41,466 nt of DNA from a virus. Under the pieces are notes generated by a model, which did no database searches, was not told where the DNA came from, and saw only the letters and a list, made by a program, of their open reading frames with translations. Below are positions 24 through 41,215 of the stretch, piece after piece (the stretch's first letter is position 1; every line of letters starts with the position of its first letter). Made by a program: the position numbers and the translations under genes. The DNA is taken from IMG/VR virus record IMGVR_UViG_3300047317_000125, positions 1 through 41,466 of that record. One strand, written 5' to 3'.

Positions 24-108
24 GCCGGGGTGATGAAATTGGTAAACATAGCGGACTTAAAATCCGCCGCTTCACAGCTTGCCGGTTCAAGTCCGGTCCC
101 CGGCACCA
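24..108 (+). tRNA. tRNA-Leu (anticodon UAA)
   Basis: The 85-base sequence folds as a class II tRNA. The acceptor stem pairs GCCGGGG (24-30) with CCCCGGC (98-104), followed by A105 as discriminator and an encoded CCA at 106-108. The anticodon arm GCGGA-CTTAAAA-TCCGC shows anticodon TAA, and a long variable arm follows, as expected for leucine. The T-loop region reads GGTTCAAGTCC. The gene is intact and serves as the integration target: its last 16 bases are repeated at the right end of the prophage. Confidence 0.95.
93..108 (+). other. attL core (16-bp direct repeat)
   Basis: CCGGTCCCCGGCACCA forms the 3' end of the tRNA gene and recurs exactly at 41352-41367. The flanking bases differ on both sides (T92/C41351 and T109/A41368), so the identity is exactly 16 bases. 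With the integrase gene starting 160 bases inward, this is the left attachment site. The phage copy restores the tRNA 3' end. Confidence 0.93.
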
Positions 109-3203: not shown

Positions 3204-4082
3204 TTAGTCTCCGCACATGCAGTCGGCGATGCGCTCATCTATCTCATTCTTTTCAAACAGGCCTGTCTGGCGAGAATGGAAATCAATCTCTCGAATCATT
3301 CCCGCATAGTCTGGTCTGTCACGTCTGAATACTTGGCCAGTTTCATTCTCCATGCGAGCCCACCATATCGCTGATTCGGGTTTCTTTTGAATGATGGCAA
3401 TTAGCTTGTGCTGTGCTTTCAGAAAGCACAGGTCACAATTGCCCTCGTCGCTGTTCGGATCTAATTTCAAATCGAAAGGCATACTCTTCCAAAATGCATT
3501 CACGTCGGCCTTTGTGACGCCCGCGTGCCACATTGGAATTACGTTGTCCCAGCGCTCCCGGTTGGGTCGAAGCATCCGTTCGGCTCGCCTAGGCTCGTCG
3601 CCACGAATTCCGACGATGTTGTCCCAATGGTTAAATCCGGAATCCCTCATATAGCGCGCAGCTGTTTTTATTTTTAGGTAGGACGTGCATAGGCGTTGTA
3701 CAGGATTCGGTAAGATAGGGGGAAGTCCTTTTTCTGCCTTCCTGTAGTCTGCGAGACGTTTCATGAGTCGCTCAAACGGCTCGCCATTACGAGCTGCGCT
3801 AGCGAAATCTACGCGTCGGTACTTGGATTCTCCAGCACTTTTACCGTAATAATCATCGTATTCAAGCCAGACAATTTCAATACCGAAATGGATTTCGCAG
3901 TCACGTACAAATTCCAATGTTTCTTCGCGTTCCTTACCGGTATTTTGGAAGCAAACGTGAATATCATCCGGCAACGTCCCACCGTGGGCGTCCAGAATAT
4001 TAGCGAGCATGTAGCCTGACGATCGTCCACCGCTGAACCCGATTTGGGCTGGGCCTTCGATGAAATATGGATTGCGGCTCAT
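3204..4082 (-). CDS. PAPS-reductase-like PP-loop ATPase family protein
   Basis: A 292-residue protein of the adenine-nucleotide alpha-hydrolase superfamily. The PP-loop SGGRSSG lies at residues 17-23, followed by VCFQNTGKEREETLEFV, the usual second strand-helix with the conserved NTG(K/R). Cysteine pairs CDLC (about 235-238) and CMCGD at the C-terminus suggest a metal or iron-sulfur site. Such phage proteins are often called phosphoadenosine phosphosulfate reductases, but sulfate reduction is not shown. Nucleotide activation for sulfur transfer or base modification is equally possible. ATG 4082 has GGGAG nearby. It lies in the early operon next to a cysteine-rich protein. Confidence 0.85.
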   Translation of the reverse strand: MSRNPYFIEGPAQIGFSGGRSSGYMLANILDAHGGTLPDDIHVCFQNTGKEREETLEFVRDCEIHFGIEIVWLEYDDYYGKSAGESKYRRVDFASAARNGEPFERLMKRLADYRKAEKGLPPILPNPVQRLCTSYLKIKTAARYMRDSGFNHWDNIVGIRGDEPRRAERMLRPNRERWDNVIPMWHAGVTKADVNAFWKSMPFDLKLDPNSDEGNCDLCFLKAQHKLIAIIQKKPESAIWWARMENETGQVFRRDRPDYAGMIREIDFHSRQTGLFEKNEIDERIADCMCGD

Positions 4083-6795: not shown

Positions 6796-6999
6796 TCACC
6801 CTCCGCAAATAACGTTGACCGCTCGATCCCAGAAAAGCGCCGTCATCACCAGCGCCGTAAAGCACGACCCGAACAGCGCACTCCAGATCACCAGCAGCAC
6901 GTCCGCGCCGAAGAAGTCAGGATGCGCGACAGGCTCACGGTCTATTCCGGCGAAGGCGCGGTGCAGGCGGCCGGCGATGCGGGCTAGGGCGTGGTTCAT
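6796..6999 (-). CDS. small membrane protein
   Basis: A 67-residue protein with a basic N-terminal region (MNHALARIAGRLHRAFAG) and one long hydrophobic segment, about residues 33-56 (VLLVIWSALFGSCFTALVMTALFW). The start overlaps the upstream DUF551-like stop in ATGA. A single-pass inner-membrane protein is likely. Function unknown; it is one of several tiny membrane proteins in this operon. Confidence 0.65.
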   Translation of the reverse strand: MNHALARIAGRLHRAFAGIDREPVAHPDFFGADVLLVIWSALFGSCFTALVMTALFWDRAVNVICGG

Positions 7000-7199
7000 T
7001 TCGGAAACTCCGGTAGCGGCATCCAGTGTGTCGGCCAGTAAAGATCATCACCGCTGTCATCGTTCATAAAAACACCGCCCATTCGGCGCGCGGTTGCCCA
7101 AAATCGCGTAGTGCCCGGCTTGTTGTATGCCCATCCAGTTACGAGAACGATCGAATCTTCGTCGGGCAGTCGGTCGTCTGTTTTAATCCAGTCGCTCAC
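6996..7199 (-). CDS. DUF551-like protein
   Basis: A 67-residue protein read from GTG 7199, with a strong GGGAGGAG ribosome site; the ATG-started longer frame has none. The pattern DWIKTDDRLPDEDSIVLVTGW near the start and THWMPLPEFP at the end is diagnostic of DUF551, a common small phage family of unknown function. A second, broken gene with the same layout lies at 39909-40097. The GTG overlaps the stop of a 28-residue ORF (GTGA). Confidence 0.85.
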   Translation of the reverse strand: MSDWIKTDDRLPDEDSIVLVTGWAYNKPGTTRFWATARRMGGVFMNDDSGDDLYWPTHWMPLPEFPK

Positions 7200-21084: not shown

Positions 21085-21771
21085 ATGGTTGCAGCAGCGG
21101 TAGGAGCGGCGGCCGTCGTCGGCGGTGTCGCAAGCTCGGCAATGTCGGCCAGTGCGGCCGGCAGCGCGGCGGATGCGCAGAAACAGTCGGCGCAGAACAG
21201 TCTTGAGTTCAGCGAGCAGCAATACGCTGACCAGCAGAAGAACATTTCGCCATACCTTGCGGCCGGTCAGCAGGGTGTGACAGCGTATGGCGACTTGCTC
21301 GGGTCAAACGGCACGGACGCGCAGAATGCTGCGATCGGCGGCATCAAGAACGGCGCGCAGTATCAAGGGTTGATGCAGACGGGGAACGAGAACATCCTGG
21401 CGAACGCATCGGCCACAGGCGGACTGCGCGGCTCGAACACGAGCAACACGCTCGCCAACACGTCAATCAGCACGCTCAACGGCCTCATTACACAGCGGCT
21501 GGCTGGCTATGGCCAGTTGATGAGCAACGGTCTGAACGCGATCAGCGGCCAGCAGGCGGCGAACAATGCGGCATATACAGGCGTCTCGAACGCGAACAAT
21601 CAGCAGGCGAACGCGGCGACTTCCTACGCTGGTGCGCTGTCGAACTCGTTCAATTCGGGCATCGGCTCAATCACGCAGGGCATCAACCGCTATGCGCAGA
21701 CGAGCACGGCCAACAATCCGACTTACGGGACGACCGACGCCGGCAACCCGATCTACTTCACGGGGACCTAA
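21085..21771 (+). CDS. P22 gp7-like DNA ejection protein
   Basis: A 228-residue protein (P22 gp7: 229). An N-terminal hydrophobic Ala/Gly helix is followed by QQYADQQKNISPYLAAGQQGVTAYGDLLG and GNENILANASATGGLRGSN, motifs frequent in podovirus internal ejection proteins; the remainder is Asn/Gln/Ala-rich. It would leave the virion with the DNA and help cross the cell envelope. It begins the gp7-gp20-gp16 block. Confidence 0.82.
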   Translation: MVAAAVGAAAVVGGVASSAMSASAAGSAADAQKQSAQNSLEFSEQQYADQQKNISPYLAAGQQGVTAYGDLLGSNGTDAQNAAIGGIKNGAQYQGLMQTGNENILANASATGGLRGSNTSNTLANTSISTLNGLITQRLAGYGQLMSNGLNAISGQQAANNAAYTGVSNANNQQANAATSYAGALSNSFNSGIGSITQGINRYAQTSTANNPTYGTTDAGNPIYFTGT

Positions 21772-26638: not shown

Positions 26639-27097
26639 ATGAACAAACCGGCCTTTGCAGTCGAGCGATTCCAAGATGTGTACGCGGAACTGTTGCCGCT
26701 GCTACACGAGCACTACGACGAGATCAGCATTCACAAGCAGATGGGCTATGACCTGAAGCCGAATGTCGCGCTGTACAAGGCGATGCAGGACGCCGATCAG
26801 TTGATGATGATGATTGGTCGGCTCGACGGCCAGATCGTCGCGTATTTTGTCGTTTTCGTGCGGCCGAGCATCCACTATCAGGATTGCCTCGAAGGCATTG
26901 GTGACATTTTCTTCGTCGAGCAGACGCGGCGCGGCGCCATGTTCGGGAATGCGCTGTTCGAAGCGACCGAGAACGAATTGAAGCGCCGCGGCGTGAAGTG
27001 CTTCATGGCCGGCGAGAAGCTGGCGTTTCCTGCCGCGCCATTATTCGAGCGTCGCAAATTTGAACCCATCGAAAGGAAGTGGGCACTATGGCTCTGA
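26639..27097 (+). CDS. GNAT-type N-acetyltransferase
   Basis: A 152-residue protein. Strand RLDGQIVAYFVVFV, then GDIFFVEQTRRGAMFGNALFEATENELKRRG with the Q/R-x-x-G-x-(G/A) acetyl-CoA loop (QTRRGAMFG), and CFMAGEKLAF followed by LFERRKFEPIERKWALWL fit the GNAT fold. Such genes often stand before the portal in podoviruses. The substrate is unknown; a virion protein or a host target is possible. It overlaps the portal start by 10 bases. Confidence 0.82.
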   Translation: MNKPAFAVERFQDVYAELLPLLHEHYDEISIHKQMGYDLKPNVALYKAMQDADQLMMMIGRLDGQIVAYFVVFVRPSIHYQDCLEGIGDIFFVEQTRRGAMFGNALFEATENELKRRGVKCFMAGEKLAFPAAPLFERRKFEPIERKWALWL

Positions 27098-29397
27098 CCA
27101 AAGAAGAACGTCTCGGGAAGGTCTGGGAGCGCGCAACCTCGCGCTTCGACCGGGCTTATGCGCCCCAGCAGCAGATTCGCCTGGCTGCGCTGGAAGATCG
27201 GCGTTTCGCCTTCGTAGACGGAGCCCAATGGGAAGGTGGCCTTGGCGCGCAGTTCAACAACCGACCGCGCTTCGTCGTCAACAAGACGCAGAAAGCCGTG
27301 CGCCGGATCGTGTCGGAGTACCGCGCCAATGCGATGACGGTCAATTTCCGCTCAAGCGATGACGACAGCCGGCAGGAGGATCTTGACGCGCTGCGCATCG
27401 TCTACCGCTCCGACGAGCAGTACAGCGGCGCGCAGGACGTGTACGTGTCTGCCTTCGAAGAAGCCGTGGCCGGCGGAATCGGCGCCTGGCGCCTGACGAA
27501 TGATTACGATTATCGCGCAGAAACGGACCTCGACGACGACACGCCGCAACGCATCCTTTTTGAGCCGATCAACGATGCGGATATCAGCGTTTTCTTCGAC
27601 CCGAACAGCCGCAAGCTCGACAAGTCGGACGCAATGTGGTGCGTGGTGCTGAATCCGATCAGCTGGGATACGTACACGTCCGAGTACATCGAGAGCGCGG
27701 AAGTCAAGCTTGACGAACGCCCGTCCAGCTTCAAGACGGTTCGCTCGCTGAAGCAATTCGACTGGTTCTCCAACGATGCTGTCTACATCGGTGAGTACTA
27801 CGAAGTAGAGAAAAAGACCGAGGAATATGCGGTCTGGCGCGAGCCGCACTCCGGACAGGAACAGAAGGTCTACGCTGGCGTTGATGCAGACTCTCGCGAA
27901 GATGCGGCAGAGAAAGCCGACGAATTGAAGTCGAACGGTTATGTGCTGGTGCGAAATGGCAAGCGCAACCGTAAGCGCGTGCGCAAGTATTTCCTCGACG
28001 GAACAGGCATCCTGAAGGATTGCGGCTACATCGCCGGCTCCGAAATCCCGATCGTGGTCGTGTTCGGTATCCGCCAGATCATCGACGGCATCGAGCGCTT
28101 CCAGGGCGCTGTGCGGCTCGCCAAGGACTCGCAGCGCCTGTACAACATGCAGATCAGCACGTTGGCCGATATCACGGCATTCACGCCGCGCGAGAAGCCG
28201 ATCTTTCTGCCCGAGCAGATGGCCGGCCATGAGTTGACGTGGGCCAATGACCTCGTTGCGAACAATCCGTATCTGCTGGTCAACGGGCTGACGGGAGCCG
28301 ATGGTTCCGTGACGGCAGTCGGCCCGATTGGCTACATCAAGCAGCCCGACGTTCCGCCCGCGCTGGCCGGTCTCGTGCAGATTACCGCAGCCGACATGCT
28401 GGACGTGACAGGCGGCGATCTGGCGGCCGATCAGGTCAACTCGAATACGTCCGATGCACTGGTGAGCCGCGTGCAGGCCCATCAGGATATGCAGGTCTAC
28501 ATCTTCATCGACAACATGGCGCGGGCTCTGGAGCGGTGCGGCAAGATTTACATGTCGATGGCCTGCGAGGTCTACACCGAGGAAAACCGGCCGTTCGCGG
28601 CGCTCGGCGAGGACAACCGCACGTCCGAGACGACGAAGATCAATGTCCCGTCGCTGAACGCAGCCGGCGAGCCGGTCATTACGCGCTCCTTCACTCCTGG
28701 ACTCGACGTGTTCGTTGACGTTGGCCCAGCGTTTAACAGCCGCAAGGATTCGACCGTCAACACGCTCATCAAGCTCCTGCCGGGTGTGACCGATCCGCAG
28801 ATGGCGCAACTCGTCATGAACACGCTGATCCAGAACCTCGACGGTGAGGGGATGCAGGATCTGTCTCAGTACTCGCGCAAGCAGCTTGTGCAGGCTGGCG
28901 TGGTCAAGCCAACCGACGAGGAAGCGCAGCAGCTCGCCGAGGAACAGCAGCAAGCCGCAAACGCACCGCCAGACGCCGCCACGGTCGCTCTGCTGGCTCA
29001 GGCGCGCGAGTCCGATGCCAACGCCAGCAAGAGCCAGGCGTCGGCCGTACAGTCTCTTTCGGCTGCCGAACTCAACCAGGCAAAGGCGGCGCAAGCTGTC
29101 TCGCAAACGAACGCGTCTCAGCTTTCGACGATTATCGGCATGCTGCAAAGTATGCAGGGCAACGTGCAGGGCACCGCAGAGCAGATCAGCGCCGGCCAGC
29201 CGCAGCATCCGCTTGATGGCAAGGTGAATGCGGCTATCGCAAGCGGCAACGCGGCGCCGTCACCGGGTATCAATCCGCTTCATGGCGTGCAGCAAGTTCA
29301 ACCTGACCCGAGCGCGCAGCAGTTGACGGCAGGCAATCAAGCACCGCCGCCTCAAGCGCCGATCCATGCATCTAACCGTCCTGCTGTCGGTAAATGA
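27088..29397 (+). CDS. P22-type portal protein
   Basis: A 769-residue protein (P22 gp1: 725) forming the dodecameric DNA gate. Recognisable parts are LAALEDRRFAFVDGAQWEGG, VVNKTQKAVRRIVSEYRAN, FEEAVAGGIGAWRL, PISWDTYTSEYIESAE and RQIIDGIERFQGAVRLAKDSQRLYN. The C-terminal 200 residues are Gln/Ala-rich helix (QQLAEEQQQAANAP, AAELNQAKAAQAVSQTNA), like the P22 barrel but with a Pro/Gln tail. ATG 27088 is preferred to GTG 27079. Overlaps terL by ATGA. Confidence 0.92.
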   Translation: MALTKEERLGKVWERATSRFDRAYAPQQQIRLAALEDRRFAFVDGAQWEGGLGAQFNNRPRFVVNKTQKAVRRIVSEYRANAMTVNFRSSDDDSRQEDLDALRIVYRSDEQYSGAQDVYVSAFEEAVAGGIGAWRLTNDYDYRAETDLDDDTPQRILFEPINDADISVFFDPNSRKLDKSDAMWCVVLNPISWDTYTSEYIESAEVKLDERPSSFKTVRSLKQFDWFSNDAVYIGEYYEVEKKTEEYAVWREPHSGQEQKVYAGVDADSREDAAEKADELKSNGYVLVRNGKRNRKRVRKYFLDGTGILKDCGYIAGSEIPIVVVFGIRQIIDGIERFQGAVRLAKDSQRLYNMQISTLADITAFTPREKPIFLPEQMAGHELTWANDLVANNPYLLVNGLTGADGSVTAVGPIGYIKQPDVPPALAGLVQITAADMLDVTGGDLAADQVNSNTSDALVSRVQAHQDMQVYIFIDNMARALERCGKIYMSMACEVYTEENRPFAALGEDNRTSETTKINVPSLNAAGEPVITRSFTPGLDVFVDVGPAFNSRKDSTVNTLIKLLPGVTDPQMAQLVMNTLIQNLDGEGMQDLSQYSRKQLVQAGVVKPTDEEAQQLAEEQQQAANAPPDAATVALLAQARESDANASKSQASAVQSLSAAELNQAKAAQAVSQTNASQLSTIIGMLQSMQGNVQGTAEQISAGQPQHPLDGKVNAAIASGNAAPSPGINPLHGVQQVQPDPSAQQLTAGNQAPPPQAPIHASNRPAVGK

Positions 29398-30677
29398 GTG
29401 AAATCTCGCTTCCGGATTGGGCGGAATGTCTGCTGACGCCAGGCCCGCGCTATACCGTGCTTCACGGTGGGCGCGGCTCGGCCAAGTCAATGTCTGTTGG
29501 CACTGCACTTCCCATCCGTGCGGCGGCTGAACCGTTGCGTATCCTGTGCTGCCGGGAAATCCAGCAGTCTATTCAGGAGTCTGTGAAATCGATGCTGGAG
29601 TCGCGTATCCGCGCAATGGGCCTCGCAGGCTCGTTCTACGATATCCAGAAGTCTGAAATCAACGGCGCGAACGGCAGCAAGTTCATCTTCCGCGGTCTAA
29701 GTGATATCACCGCGGACTCGATCAAGTCGCTGGACAATATCGATATCGTATGGGTAGAAGAAGCTCAGGCGCTGTCACAGCGCTCGCTCGATCTATTGCT
29801 TCCGACCATTCGGAAAGACACGTCTGAGATATGGATGACGATGAACCCGGAACTGGATACCGATCCGGTCTACACGACGTTCATCGAGAAGCCGCCGGCC
29901 AACGCGCGCGTGATCCAGGTCAACTGGAACCGGAACCCGTTCTGGAATAGCGCGCTGGAGGCAGAACGCCTACGCTCCCAAGCCGACGATCCTGAGCGGT
30001 ACGATCACATATGGGAAGGTGTTCCTCTGTCGGCCGCATCTGGCGCGATCTATCGCGTGGAAATGCATGCGCTGTCGGTGAATAACCGGATTCGTCCGAT
30101 TGCTGAAGATCCGGCGCTAACCACCCATGCGGTCTTCGACCTTGGCGTGGCCGATCTGACCTCGATCACGATCGCCCAAGCGGATATCAGCGGCTTGCGC
30201 GTGCTGGCGTTTTACGAGGATCACGGTCTTGCGCTGAAAGACTATAGCGACTGGCTGCGGCAGAATGGGTGGGGACATTGCACGATCTGGCTTCCTCACG
30301 ATGGCCGCGCGCGCTCATTGCACACCGGCATGTCGTCGGAATCTCTCATGAAGTCGTATGGGTGGAATGTGCAGATTGTTCCGTCACTGCCAGTTGAGAC
30401 AGGCATCCAGAACACCAGGGCGGCGCTCAAGAACGCGTTTATCTCTGACGACAACGGCTGCAACGTGCTTCTTGAGCATCTGCGCCGCTATACCCGGAAC
30501 AAGGCGGGTCATCCGCAGCATGACGAGCATTCACACGCCGCGGACAGTTTCCGCTATACCGCTATCGCAATGGGGCATTTCAAGGCAGCGTCGGAGCGCG
30601 TTGCAAAGCAGGCTGACTTAGCCGCGCGCGTGAAAGTCATCCCAACCGTGAACCATTGGGGCAATGTAAGTCGATGA
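29394..30677 (+). CDS. terL: terminase large subunit
   Basis: A 427-residue packaging ATPase-nuclease of the PBSX/Terminase_3 type. Walker A is GGRGSAKS (residues 25-32), Walker B IDIVWVEEA (116-124) with E122/E123, and motif III is MTMNPE. The C-terminal nuclease shows FDLGVADLTSIT (first metal Asp) and DEHSHAADSFRYTA near the end. The 3' end overlaps the convergent hydroxylase gene by 41 bases. No small subunit gene is adjacent. Confidence 0.95.
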   Translation: MSEISLPDWAECLLTPGPRYTVLHGGRGSAKSMSVGTALPIRAAAEPLRILCCREIQQSIQESVKSMLESRIRAMGLAGSFYDIQKSEINGANGSKFIFRGLSDITADSIKSLDNIDIVWVEEAQALSQRSLDLLLPTIRKDTSEIWMTMNPELDTDPVYTTFIEKPPANARVIQVNWNRNPFWNSALEAERLRSQADDPERYDHIWEGVPLSAASGAIYRVEMHALSVNNRIRPIAEDPALTTHAVFDLGVADLTSITIAQADISGLRVLAFYEDHGLALKDYSDWLRQNGWGHCTIWLPHDGRARSLHTGMSSESLMKSYGWNVQIVPSLPVETGIQNTRAALKNAFISDDNGCNVLLEHLRRYTRNKAGHPQHDEHSHAADSFRYTAIAMGHFKAASERVAKQADLAARVKVIPTVNHWGNVSR

Positions 30678-31254
30678 CCATGCTGATGCGGTCGATCGCC
30701 GACTCGTTCCGCACCTCATGCTCGAGTTCATTGCGGAACCAGAAAAGCCGCCCGGTCAGCATCTGCATCGCCTCGTCCTTACTGCCATCGCTTTCCTCGC
30801 CGCAGTAGATCACGGCGCCGGGTTGGCCTTGTAGCACCAGATGAAAACGCTTCCAGTACCGGACATGCTCGGGAGTGTCGGCGTGGCGGAAGATCCGGCC
30901 ACCCGGTTTGATGCGGTTGATCATCACACGGCCGATCCGCGTGGCGCGCGTGAACTGCGCAAGGTCGAACACGAAGCCATGCGCTTGCGGCAACTGGTCC
31001 CACGCAGGCCGGAACACCGATTCGTGCTGGTCATATCCAGGCAGCATGTTCTGCTTGTACAGCTCGATCTGCTCATCGGTCAGGCCGGTGGCGATCTCCG
31101 GGAAGCGCAGCATGATCGTGTCGGTGTCGCCGAATGGCCCCTGCGGATACTTGCGCAGGAAATCATCAGCTTCCCAGCGCGACGGCTCCATGGCGACGGC
31201 GAGCGCCAGCGCGGACACGTCCATGTTGTCTTTGATGATGCGAAAGTGGCGCAT
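30637..31254 (-). CDS. aspartyl/asparaginyl beta-hydroxylase-like 2OG-Fe(II) oxygenase
   Basis: A 205-residue protein of the cupin-type 2-oxoglutarate oxygenases. Iron ligands H124 and D126 (RHADT) and H179 (LEHEV), with R189 as likely 2OG partner (IDRISMVIDLH), are all present. It therefore looks active. It would hydroxylate a protein side chain or small molecule; the target is unknown. It is the last gene of a four-gene leftward cassette inside the late region, a moron. Its end overlaps terL on the other strand. Confidence 0.85.
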   Translation of the reverse strand: MRHFRIIKDNMDVSALALAVAMEPSRWEADDFLRKYPQGPFGDTDTIMLRFPEIATGLTDEQIELYKQNMLPGYDQHESVFRPAWDQLPQAHGFVFDLAQFTRATRIGRVMINRIKPGGRIFRHADTPEHVRYWKRFHLVLQGQPGAVIYCGEESDGSKDEAMQMLTGRLFWFRNELEHEVRNESAIDRISMVIDLHCPNGSRLG

Positions 31255-31256
31255 AG

Positions 31257-31478
31257 TTACCCCGCGTTGAACGATGCAAGCACTACGCCAATCGGCAAAT
31301 CTTCCACCGCATTTCCAATGTGCGTAATCTTGATGCGCTCAAGTTCTCGGGTCCATCCGAAAAGACCGCGAGGTGGCAACGTGCGCAAGGCATCGTGTTC
31401 GTTTTCGGCAGCGACAACCATTGAGTCATATTCGTCATAGTCAACACGGTCGCCGCGCTCTAGTAAGTAAAGTTTCAT
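31257..31478 (-). CDS. small conserved phage/bacterial protein, unknown function
   Basis: A 73-residue protein from ATG 31478 (MKLYLLERGDRVDYDEYDSM); a TTG start 12 bases upstream is possible. KLYLLER, DYDEYDSMVVAAENEHDA and a final GVVLASFNAG form a pattern found in small proteins of many phages and bacteria. It is encoded between the membrane protein and the hydroxylase. Confidence 0.7.
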   Translation of the reverse strand: MKLYLLERGDRVDYDEYDSMVVAAENEHDALRTLPPRGLFGWTRELERIKITHIGNAVEDLPIGVVLASFNAG

Positions 31479-31479
31479 A

Positions 31480-31737
31480 TCAGAAAGCAATCCTAAAAAG
31501 GGCGATGATACCGCCTACCGCTGCAATAGCGACCGACCATCCAAGGATCGTCTTGAGCACGGTCAAGCCATTGCGCCGAACATCTGCAATCAGTTCGGCG
31601 ATAGCTTCGATCAATGACTCATGCACGAGATACAGGATGCGCGCGGCTGCGAGGCCAAAGAATACGAACATGGTGACGGACGGCGGCAGCAGAAAGATGC
31701 TCCCGAGGCATATCCAGAAGTACCAGACTAACCACAT
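31480..31737 (-). CDS. two-helix membrane protein
   Basis: An 85-residue protein with a first hydrophobic segment of about residues 1-35 (WYFWICLGSIFLLPPSVTMFVFFGLAA) and a second near the C-terminus (ILGWSVAIAAVGGIIALF). A polar amphipathic helix lies between (VHESLIEAIAELIADVRRN). ATG 31737 has AAGGA upstream, inside the end of the RHH gene. Function unknown. Confidence 0.7.
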   Translation of the reverse strand: MWLVWYFWICLGSIFLLPPSVTMFVFFGLAAARILYLVHESLIEAIAELIADVRRNGLTVLKTILGWSVAIAAVGGIIALFRIAF

Positions 31738-31880
31738 GATTTTTCCTTTCTCTCGCTCTCGTCAAGGTGTTTCTCAATGATCGAGCGGATGATCTCAGCG
31801 ACCGAATAGTCGCGTTTCTCGGCAATTTCCTTCAGCTTTGTAAGCATCGGCTTGGGGAAGTGAATTTGAAGGCGTTCCAT
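31728..31880 (-). CDS. ribbon-helix-helix (Arc/CopG-type) regulator, 50 residues
   Basis: A 50-residue protein: strand MERLQIHFPKPM, helix TKLKEIAEKRD, then YSVAEIIRSIIEKHLDE. This is the complete ribbon-helix-helix layout, with Arg/Gln/His in the DNA-facing strand. It starts the leftward cassette and overlaps the membrane-protein start by 10 bases. Direct repeats just upstream may be its operators. In P22 the Arc and Mnt repressors, of the same fold, occupy the immI region elsewhere in the late genes. It probably represses its own cassette. Confidence 0.82.
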   Translation of the reverse strand: MERLQIHFPKPMLTKLKEIAEKRDYSVAEIIRSIIEKHLDESERKEKSCG

Positions 31881-31894
31881 AGATGTATGTTAGA

Positions 31895-31925
31895 GGTAAT
31901 TTGCACTACCAGGGGTAATTTTCAC
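31895..31925. repeat. 19-bp-spaced direct repeat, candidate RHH operator
   Basis: GGTAATTTGCAC (31895-31906) and GGTAATTTTCAC (31914-31925), 11 of 12 identical and 19 bases apart, lie between the divergent RHH and scaffold genes. A -10-like TATACT (31928-31933) follows on the plus strand. Two nearly equal half-sites suit binding of two RHH dimers. Confidence 0.55.
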
Positions 31926-31978
31926 CGTATACTCCATTTGTTGCAGATTGAAAACTTCCGCCAACAAAAGGTGAGCGA

Positions 31979-32839
31979 ATGGACCAGCTAGACGAAGTAC
32001 AGACGGGCGCGCCCGAACTCGACAACCAACCTACCACGCCGGTGCTGTTTGAGGACGCTGAAGAACTTGAACCCGGCGCGCCAGAAGTCGGGGACAACGG
32101 CGATCCGACCGGCGAAGCGCCCGAAACTCCCGCAGGCGAAGAGTCTCAGCAGCCGCGCGAAAGCAAGACCTTCCAGGAAATCCGGAAGATGGCGAACGGC
32201 GCGCTGAAGGATAAGCGGCGCCTGGAGCGCGAGCTGGAAGAATTGCGCGCCAAGTTCCCGAAGCCTGAACCGACGCTTGGCCCGAAGCCGACGCTAGACC
32301 AGTTCGACTACGACGAAGCGAAGTACGAAGAAGCGTTCGCCGGATGGATGGCGCAGAAGGCGGCCGCAGACGACGCTGATCGAAAGAAGATGGATGAGCA
32401 GCGCCGCGAGCAGGAAGAGCTTGAAAACTTCAAGAAAACCTACCAGAAGCGCGCTGAATCGCTCGGCGTAAGTGACTTCAAGGAAGCCGAGTCTGAAGTC
32501 GGCGAAATGCTCAATGCGACTCAGAAAGGTCTTATGATGCGCGGCGCCGACGATCCGGCCGCTCTCGTCTACGCTCTGTCCAAGTCGCCCGCCAAGCTGA
32601 TCGAACTGTCCCACATCACGGACCCGGTAAAGTTTACTGTGGCCGTCGCAAAACTGGAGATGAACTTGTCCGCACGCAAAACCAGCCGTCCCGCGCCGGA
32701 ACCGCGCGTATCGTCCGAGCGCAGCGCCACCGGCCACAGCGCTTCTGCATCGCAACTCGAAAAGCTCCGTGAGGAAGCGGCGCGCACAGGCGACTACACC
32801 CAAGTGACGGCGTACAAGAGGAAAAACGGCATTAAATAG
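31979..32839 (+). CDS. P22 gp8-like scaffolding protein
   Basis: A 286-residue, highly charged helical protein (P22 gp8: 303) needed for coat assembly and then released. The N-terminal 70 residues are acidic and Pro-rich, the middle is coiled-coil-like (RRLERELEELRAKF, KKMDEQRREQEELENFKKTYQKRAE), and the C-terminus is basic (ASQLEKLREEAARTGD, AYKRKNGIK), where P22 scaffold binds coat. AAAGGTGAG precedes ATG 31979. It stands directly before coat. Confidence 0.85.
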   Translation: MDQLDEVQTGAPELDNQPTTPVLFEDAEELEPGAPEVGDNGDPTGEAPETPAGEESQQPRESKTFQEIRKMANGALKDKRRLERELEELRAKFPKPEPTLGPKPTLDQFDYDEAKYEEAFAGWMAQKAAADDADRKKMDEQRREQEELENFKKTYQKRAESLGVSDFKEAESEVGEMLNATQKGLMMRGADDPAALVYALSKSPAKLIELSHITDPVKFTVAVAKLEMNLSARKTSRPAPEPRVSSERSATGHSASASQLEKLREEAARTGDYTQVTAYKRKNGIK

Positions 32840-40111: not shown

Positions 40112-41215
40112 TTAGAGTATGGCGCGCTTGCCGGTGTTGCTTTGTCGGTAGATACGCAAGACAGCCTCACGTGCCGGGTCTTCAATAAACCGGTTGATCG
40201 CCGCCGCGCCAAGCAGGGCGGTGGCGATATAAGCCGAGTAGTTAATCCACGTCGGTGTGTGCGTCAGCCACGACGGATGCTCAAGCAGCACACGAACAAC
40301 GATCTGATGGAACATGTACAGCGCGAAACTGATACCGCCGAGATACACCAGCGCCGGCTGCGCGAGCAGCCACGACACCCTCCCCGCCTCGCATGCCAGA
40401 ATCAGGATCAGCGCGCCGAACACTAGGCAGCTTCCCGAGCTACCAAACCATCCTTGGAAGGCATTCCCCAAGACCTGGCTTACTCCGCGCATTTGCACTA
40501 TATCCATGCAGTAGTGCATTGATGCAATCGTTGCGACCACCGCCGCGATCTCCAGAATGGTAGCCGAGCGCGTCGATAGACGCTTGACCCATGGGCTCAA
40601 GTGCCGGTAGAGGTAGAACGCCGAAACACCCACAACGAATTCCACGAGTCGGGTGAGAGGTAAGATGTAATTGGCCCACGTCCTGTAAGGATCTACGCTG
40701 TTGCGTGCGAGATACAGAACAGATGACGTTATAAGTGCGCAAGCCAACAGGTTGCGCAGCCATACGCGCCGTAGGTCAACCAGTAGCAGCGGCAGCATGG
40801 CGTAAAAGAATGCCTCGTCGGATATGCTCCACGACACCCCGTTCAGGGAGAACACATAATCGTTGCCGGGTATCCAAGCCTGCAGTAGGAACAGATTGGA
40901 CACCATCGCCGGCAGCGGCCCGTGTGCGCCTTCAATTAGCAGATATGTCAGCACGGCCGTAAACAAATGGACGGGTAGCACGCGCGCGGTCCGCGCAATA
41001 GCATAGCGGGACAACGCCGGCCGCGTCAGAGGCAATCCTTCGTAGGTGTAGGCCAGAATGAATCCGGACAGCACATAAAAGAACCCGACTGCCTGAAAAA
41101 TGGCGAAATGGTTAGTGAACTGAATTGGCCCGAATACCTGTGTCCCATGCAGTACGACTATCAGGGCCGCGGCAAAGAACCGCAAGGAAGTGAGCGCATC
41201 GATCTTGTGTTTCAT
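40112..41215 (-). CDS. acyltransferase 3 family protein (O-antigen acetylase type)
   Basis: A 367-residue polytopic membrane protein. DALTSLRFFAAALIVVLHG at the start, with the family RF and LHG (active His), FFYVLSGFILAYTY, and RYAIARTARVLPVH are hallmarks of OafA/Oac-type acyltransferases. About ten hydrophobic segments follow, and the end is basic. Phages carrying such genes beside att, such as Sf6 with oac, alter host O-antigen. Lysogenic conversion is therefore the likely role; the sugar target is unknown. Confidence 0.92.
   Translation of the reverse strand: MKHKIDALTSLRFFAAALIVVLHGTQVFGPIQFTNHFAIFQAVGFFYVLSGFILAYTYEGLPLTRPALSRYAIARTARVLPVHLFTAVLTYLLIEGAHGPLPAMVSNLFLLQAWIPGNDYVFSLNGVSWSISDEAFFYAMLPLLLVDLRRVWLRNLLACALITSSVLYLARNSVDPYRTWANYILPLTRLVEFVVGVSAFYLYRHLSPWVKRLSTRSATILEIAAVVATIASMHYCMDIVQMRGVSQVLGNAFQGWFGSSGSCLVFGALILILACEAGRVSWLLAQPALVYLGGISFALYMFHQIVVRVLLEHPSWLTHTPTWINYSAYIATALLGAAAINRFIEDPAREAVLRIYRQSNTGKRAIL

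Follow-up and report, generated by a model that had tools for sequence, protein, structure and literature searches.

PF05118 proteins include human AspH, an Asp/Asn beta-hydroxylase of EGF domains which lacks an acidic iron ligand, and also enzymes whose substrates are small molecules, free amino acids among them. In phage P22 the immI region carries the Arc and Mnt repressors, which are ribbon-helix-helix proteins, as well as sieA. In phages, genes for hydroxylases dependent on 2-oxoglutarate (2OG) have been annotated time and again as auxiliary metabolic genes, with no substrate known for the enzymes. Aspartyl/asparaginyl hydroxylases were annotated in the Limnohabitans phage DC33 as ORF8 (PMC12195039) and in cyanomyophages (PMC3037559); both papers list the gene under auxiliary metabolism, and their accessible passages link it neither to a GNAT acetyltransferase nor to ejection genes. 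The public record of DC33 (PQ492659) is classed under Inoviridae, an apparent misclassification, as the paper describes a tailed phage of 39 kb whose head is icosahedral (PMC12195039). According to the passages available from a further paper, Rac is a GNAT of phiKMV-like phages which is encoded beside structural genes and acts on host proteins; phage GNATs can therefore modify proteins (PMC7552054).

The stretch of DNA analysed here in its whole length (the window) is a virus record of 41,466 bases. Judged by its gene content, it is a temperate P22-like phage of Burkholderiaceae, since tRNA-Leu and integrase occur together with P22-type genes for portal, terminase, scaffold and coat proteins. 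Relatives were found in genomes of Paraburkholderia and Robbsia and also of other Burkholderiaceae. The tRNA-Leu gene is the probable attachment site, and the start of the record may represent the prophage boundary. Additionally, two reverse-strand genes were noted: one (positions 3204-4082) encodes a phosphoadenosine-phosphosulfate-reductase-like protein (phrog_424), which also matches the defence protein SspD (E 2e-15) and may have a part in DNA phosphorothioation or in evading it; the other (40112-41215), located beside the right-end tail-fibre gene, encodes an O-acetyltransferase akin to O-antigen acetylases and is likely a serotype-conversion gene. The features relevant to the reversed genes between terminase and scaffold are compiled in Table 1.

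Table 1. Positions of the features of the window discussed in the text.
Feature	Position	Strand	Remarks
tRNA-Leu	24-108		directly before integrase
Integrase	225-1280
DNA-ejection protein	21085-21771	+	phrog_598 DNA ejection, E 1e-18
GNAT acetyltransferase (GNAT)	26639-27097	+	before portal gene; phrog_1249 acetyltransferase; AlphaFold2 pLDDT 93.6, GNAT-fold matches
Terminase large subunit (TerL)	29394-30677	+	phrog_3717, E 2e-52; left flank of cassette
HYD, 205-aa Fe(II)/2-oxoglutarate oxygenase	30637-31254	-	PF05118 Asp_Arg_Hydrox
U77, 73 aa	31257-31478	-	phrog_5444, E 8.6e-20; occupies a slot of varying content between MEM and HYD
MEM, 85-aa small membrane protein	31480-31737	-	hydropathy; 2-3 hydrophobic segments
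RHH, 50-aa Arc/CopG-type ribbon-helix-helix regulator	31728-31880	-	first gene of operon
TAACAT, possible -10 element	31887-31892	-	6 nt before RHH ATG; by eye from upstream alignment
Direct repeat AGAGGTAATTTGCAC / AGGGGTAATTTTCAC (+ strand letters)	31892-31906, 31911-31925	-	candidate RHH operator
GTATACT	31927-31933	+	alignment of upstream regions of reversed loci
Head scaffolding protein	31979-32839	+	phrog_648, E 7e-37; right flank, divergent from RHH

All four reverse-strand ORFs of the original prediction are present at the positions given there, between terL and the scaffold gene. Their spacing is operon-like, with an overlap of 10 nt between RHH and MEM and gaps of 1-2 nt between MEM and U77 and between U77 and HYD, while the 3′ ends of HYD and terL overlap tail to tail by 41 nt. 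HYD relatives were collected from viral contigs and genomes. For an unbiased sampling, contigs were picked by coat protein or TerL instead of HYD, which gave 33 distinct junctions with both flanks; the relatives are mostly metagenome contigs, several of them from one sampling campaign, and the independent lineages number fewer than 33. HYD is present and reversed in 33/33 of these TerL-scaffold junctions, MEM in 30, RHH in 22 and U77 in a single one. The gene compositions were RHH-MEM-HYD (21 junctions), MEM-HYD (8), HYD alone (3) and RHH-MEM-U77-HYD (1). Among the near relatives, the order scaffold, RHH, MEM, HYD, TerL is repeated, far beyond chance, in more than 20 contigs; the search of other genomes for a shared gene order, which had been proposed along with the prediction, thus revealed co-occurrence of RHH, MEM and HYD. 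Between the TerL and scaffold flanks of contigs with a coat protein only ~51-54% identical, the cassette is absent. All three genes are under purifying selection, with dN/dS values of ~0.05-0.09 for HYD, 0.18-0.43 for MEM and 0.06-0.30 for RHH; divergence is slower in HYD than in MEM and RHH. Within one genus-like group of P22-type phages of Burkholderiaceae, the cassette is thus a reverse operon that has become fixed, with HYD retained always, MEM nearly always and RHH mostly. Since HYD is kept in reversed orientation in every related virus examined, it probably does something that these viruses need.

U77 is a passenger from a family of other phages. Relatives of U77 were found in 91 phage records, the matches listed being phages of 230-270 kb. 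Within the group only one other phage has it, with 38% identity and in two contigs (L182/L282 and L283). Elsewhere the slot between MEM and HYD is occupied by a 93-aa, a 100-aa or a short MTVAELI-type gene, or by nothing. The unknown protein had been predicted to be a conserved part of the cassette, which is contradicted by the finding that almost all relatives lack it at this place. The expected recurrence of the unit therefore applies to RHH-MEM-HYD and not to four genes, and the unit consists of three genes plus the passenger U77. A four-gene system was rejected due to the fact that U77 varies between loci; moreover, RHH is missing at 11/33 junctions with HYD kept, and HYD stems from the late virion region instead of being a lysogen gene. 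That U77 is a small ORF which is indeed not conserved here would also fit unrelated or spurious ORFs of the antisense strand that lie together by chance. This reading is given a negligible probability and is already refuted for RHH, MEM and HYD by the conserved order, the purifying selection and the family matches of RHH and HYD.

HYD was assigned to PF05118 (Asp_Arg_Hydrox) with 40.7 bits against a curated cut-off of 22.6, and the family was matched by 39/39 of its relatives. The iron ligands H124, D126 and H179 (HxD...H) are invariant in 59/59 homologues and the 2OG-binding R189 is kept in 58/59, which bears out the earlier statement that the hydroxylase holds all iron and cofactor residues. 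An AspH-like iron site with two histidines was rejected, as D126 of the HxD motif is invariant. The N-terminal region is phage-specific and conserved (YPQGPF...DQHE). The AlphaFold2 model (pLDDT 88, pTM 0.85) is a double-stranded beta-helix with L-proline cis-4-hydroxylase (4p7w, E 5e-10) as top Foldseek match, whereas in VIA-align prolyl hydroxylases, proline 3-hydroxylase and AspH were tied (Z 14.4-15.6), and the structure therefore does not decide between a protein and a free amino acid as substrate. HYD might accordingly be a small-molecule hydroxylase of free proline, another amino acid or a metabolite, tailoring a metabolite together with GNAT during infection, and both by fold and by profile it is indeed matched best by two enzymes that share its HxD...H triad, free L-proline cis-4-hydroxylase and proline 3-hydroxylase. 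We consider such a role unlikely: the sequence identity to these enzymes is only 17-19%, the peptide-modifying AspH and the prolyl hydroxylases match about as well, and the linkage to ejection genes described below would be left unexplained.

In 46 more distant contigs HYD is encoded in forward orientation in the late region, with a head-closure gene upstream. GNAT follows directly downstream of forward HYD in 45/46 of these contigs, the 46th of which ends just after HYD, and a DNA-ejection protein comes next in 26/27 forward loci examined. The ejection protein that directly follows HYD-GNAT in forward-type loci is a homologue of the one in the window. The same HYD-GNAT-ejection block occurs in Pseudomonas phage PfAn1, for which no paper was found in the literature search, and in a Paraburkholderia prophage. 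In a second branch, formed by Burkholderiaceae prophages (L144-L147, L153-L156), GNAT is replaced, again just before the ejection gene, by a putative cupin, so designated from an HxH... pattern without a database match. When the HYD tree was rooted on the cupin branch, the reversed copies formed one clade (support 100) nested in the forward GNAT type; the root is an assumption, while the count of one orientation change is independent of it. It is a quick tree with several long branches in which the placement of L003 (the DC33 record), L004 and L148 is unsure, and the reversed clade is independent of these three. A single nested clade implies a single relocation of HYD, and this relocation and the anatomy of the cassette are regarded as highly probable. 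HYD thus originates from an older module of late genes, which encodes a small virion protein, HYD itself, either GNAT or the cupin, and a DNA-ejection protein. The GNAT of the window is the ancestral partner of HYD, left behind in the forward late region and now separate from it; its model is matched about equally by ribosomal-protein and aminoglycoside acetyltransferases.

Both the fixation of HYD and its ancestry bear on the possibility that the cassette serves lysogenic conversion, with RHH-controlled prophage genes of which MEM would block superinfection or change the envelope and HYD would modify a host protein or surface molecule. Small enzymes often occupy late-gene gaps as morons. A classic moron, sporadic at a late-gene junction, is argued against by the fixed presence of HYD (33/33) and by its ancestral place in the late virion region, and only U77-type passengers are sporadic. 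RHH is moreover dispensable, and none of the four proteins was matched by a defence-system model; a role in anti-phage defence was rejected on the same ground, as there was no PADLOC match. On the other hand, the orientation opposite to the late genes, the regulator of its own, a small membrane protein which diverges faster than HYD, the variable cargo slot, and the presence of integrase beside tRNA-Leu and of the O-acetyltransferase elsewhere in the phage are all in line with conversion, the main rival of the mechanism favoured below, which we regard as possible, if somewhat unlikely.

RHH matched Pfam RHH_1 with 26.1 bits (cut-off 20.5) and additionally Arc-like repressor PHROGs, in agreement with the prediction that the cassette has an RHH regulator of its own. 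It is absent from 11/33 loci, 8 of which keep MEM and HYD, and RHH control of the operon is therefore not essential. In L017, L018 and L019 a short ORF upstream of MEM ends in KEGKPCG, as the C-terminus of RHH does in similar form, and seems to be what is left of an RHH gene after its deletion. Antitoxins are often RHH proteins, and together with weak matches to antitoxin models this would fit a toxin-antitoxin pair of RHH and its neighbour which stabilises the prophage, with HYD as a bystander. Such a pair is very improbable, since loss of RHH from 8/33 loci that keep MEM and HYD would free a toxin, C-terminal RHH remnants are found in L017-L019, and no toxin family is matched by the cassette proteins; a type II system was rejected because the presumed antitoxin is lost while MEM and HYD are kept.

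The direct repeat listed in Table 1 has 13/15 matches at a spacing of 19 nt and precedes the RHH start by 12 nt; when the 98 nt between RHH and scaffold were shuffled 300 times by dinucleotides, no repeat as good was obtained (0/300). Autoregulation by RHH is likely, by analogy with RHH proteins that bind tandem sites such as direct repeats. A TATNAT-like element is present 6 nt before the RHH start in many relatives, and the start lacks a Shine-Dalgarno sequence; the RHH transcript may be leaderless. GTATACT is conserved between the start of RHH or MEM and the scaffold gene in most reversed loci, even in those without RHH, and is a possible -10 element of a scaffold promoter. As to the independent expression suggested in the original prediction, a scan for consensus sigma70-type promoters and terminators gave nothing above shuffles, although the direct repeat resembles an operator.

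MEM matched no family in Pfam, PHROGs or NCBIfam and no phage record. In the alignment its hydrophobic segments flank an invariant D-x-R-R-N-G-x-x-V loop, the first R of the RR pair being nearly invariant. The contigs found through MEM carry HYD as well in 22/22 cases, and the 3 junctions without MEM belong to the group of a Robbsia prophage. In L064, which lacks MEM, a hydrophobic single-span ORF of 27 residues (~6916-7000) overlaps with the start of HYD.

The mechanism which we favour, with a probability of about 0.4, is that HYD modifies a virion protein, namely an ejection protein, under the control of RHH and with the participation of MEM. HYD would be active as a Fe(II)/2OG hydroxylase of proteins at a late stage; the retained iron and 2OG residues, the dN/dS of 0.05-0.09 and the modelled hydroxylase fold are in line with an intact enzyme. 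A virion protein is suggested as target by the fixation of HYD (33/33) and its ancestral position beside GNAT and the ejection gene, and the most likely candidate would be an ejected internal protein from among those encoded beside ancestral HYD. GNAT, or the cupin, would be the second tailoring enzyme of the module. RHH would bind the direct repeat (31892-31925) and repress the operon to which it belongs, which would uncouple the synthesis of HYD and MEM from the late transcript, and MEM may attach the unit to the inner membrane and localise or assist. Against the mechanism stand that the argument from the position beside ejection genes is one of guilt by association, and that after its reversal HYD no longer shares a transcript with these genes. 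The wider proposal that phages carry a dedicated module for ejection-protein modification, consisting of a 2OG hydroxylase and a GNAT or cupin, from which one lineage moved the hydroxylase into an operon that RHH controls and that also encodes a membrane protein, is doubtful at present. A literature search, in which most subscription journals were outside coverage, retrieved no paper on hydroxylation of phage virion proteins and nothing that links a hydroxylase-GNAT pair to ejection proteins. If the proposal is true, protein hydroxylation would be a further step of virion maturation. The long association of HYD with a second small enzyme and ejection proteins, its group-wide fixation and its intact relocation offer injected proteins as a testable substrate class.

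Compared with known systems, HYD shares the profile and the double-stranded beta-helix fold of the PF05118 family (human AspH; 4p7w; proline 3-hydroxylase 1e5r), and with the proline hydroxylases also HxD...H plus the arginine. It differs from AspH, 4p7w and 1e5r by an identity of only 13-19% and a phage-specific N-terminal region, and from AspH by its acidic iron ligand D126. The cassette resembles the immI region of P22 in having a small Arc-like RHH among late genes and a small membrane protein nearby; unlike immI it lacks an antirepressor, its RHH is often lost, and HYD has no counterpart there. The GNAT of the window has no similarity to phiKMV-like phages at E 1e-5, and Rac is presented without a hydroxylase partner in the available passages of PMC7552054. 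The hydroxylase of DC33, like HYD of the forward type, is also followed by GNAT; this homologue and that of ctXG1253 are 25-26% identical to HYD, forward, and without RHH or MEM. In PfAn1, HYD (44% identical, annotated as hypothetical protein) and GNAT (37% identical) adjoin an ejection protein and a transglycosylase, and the block is encoded forward in the late operon, again without RHH or MEM.
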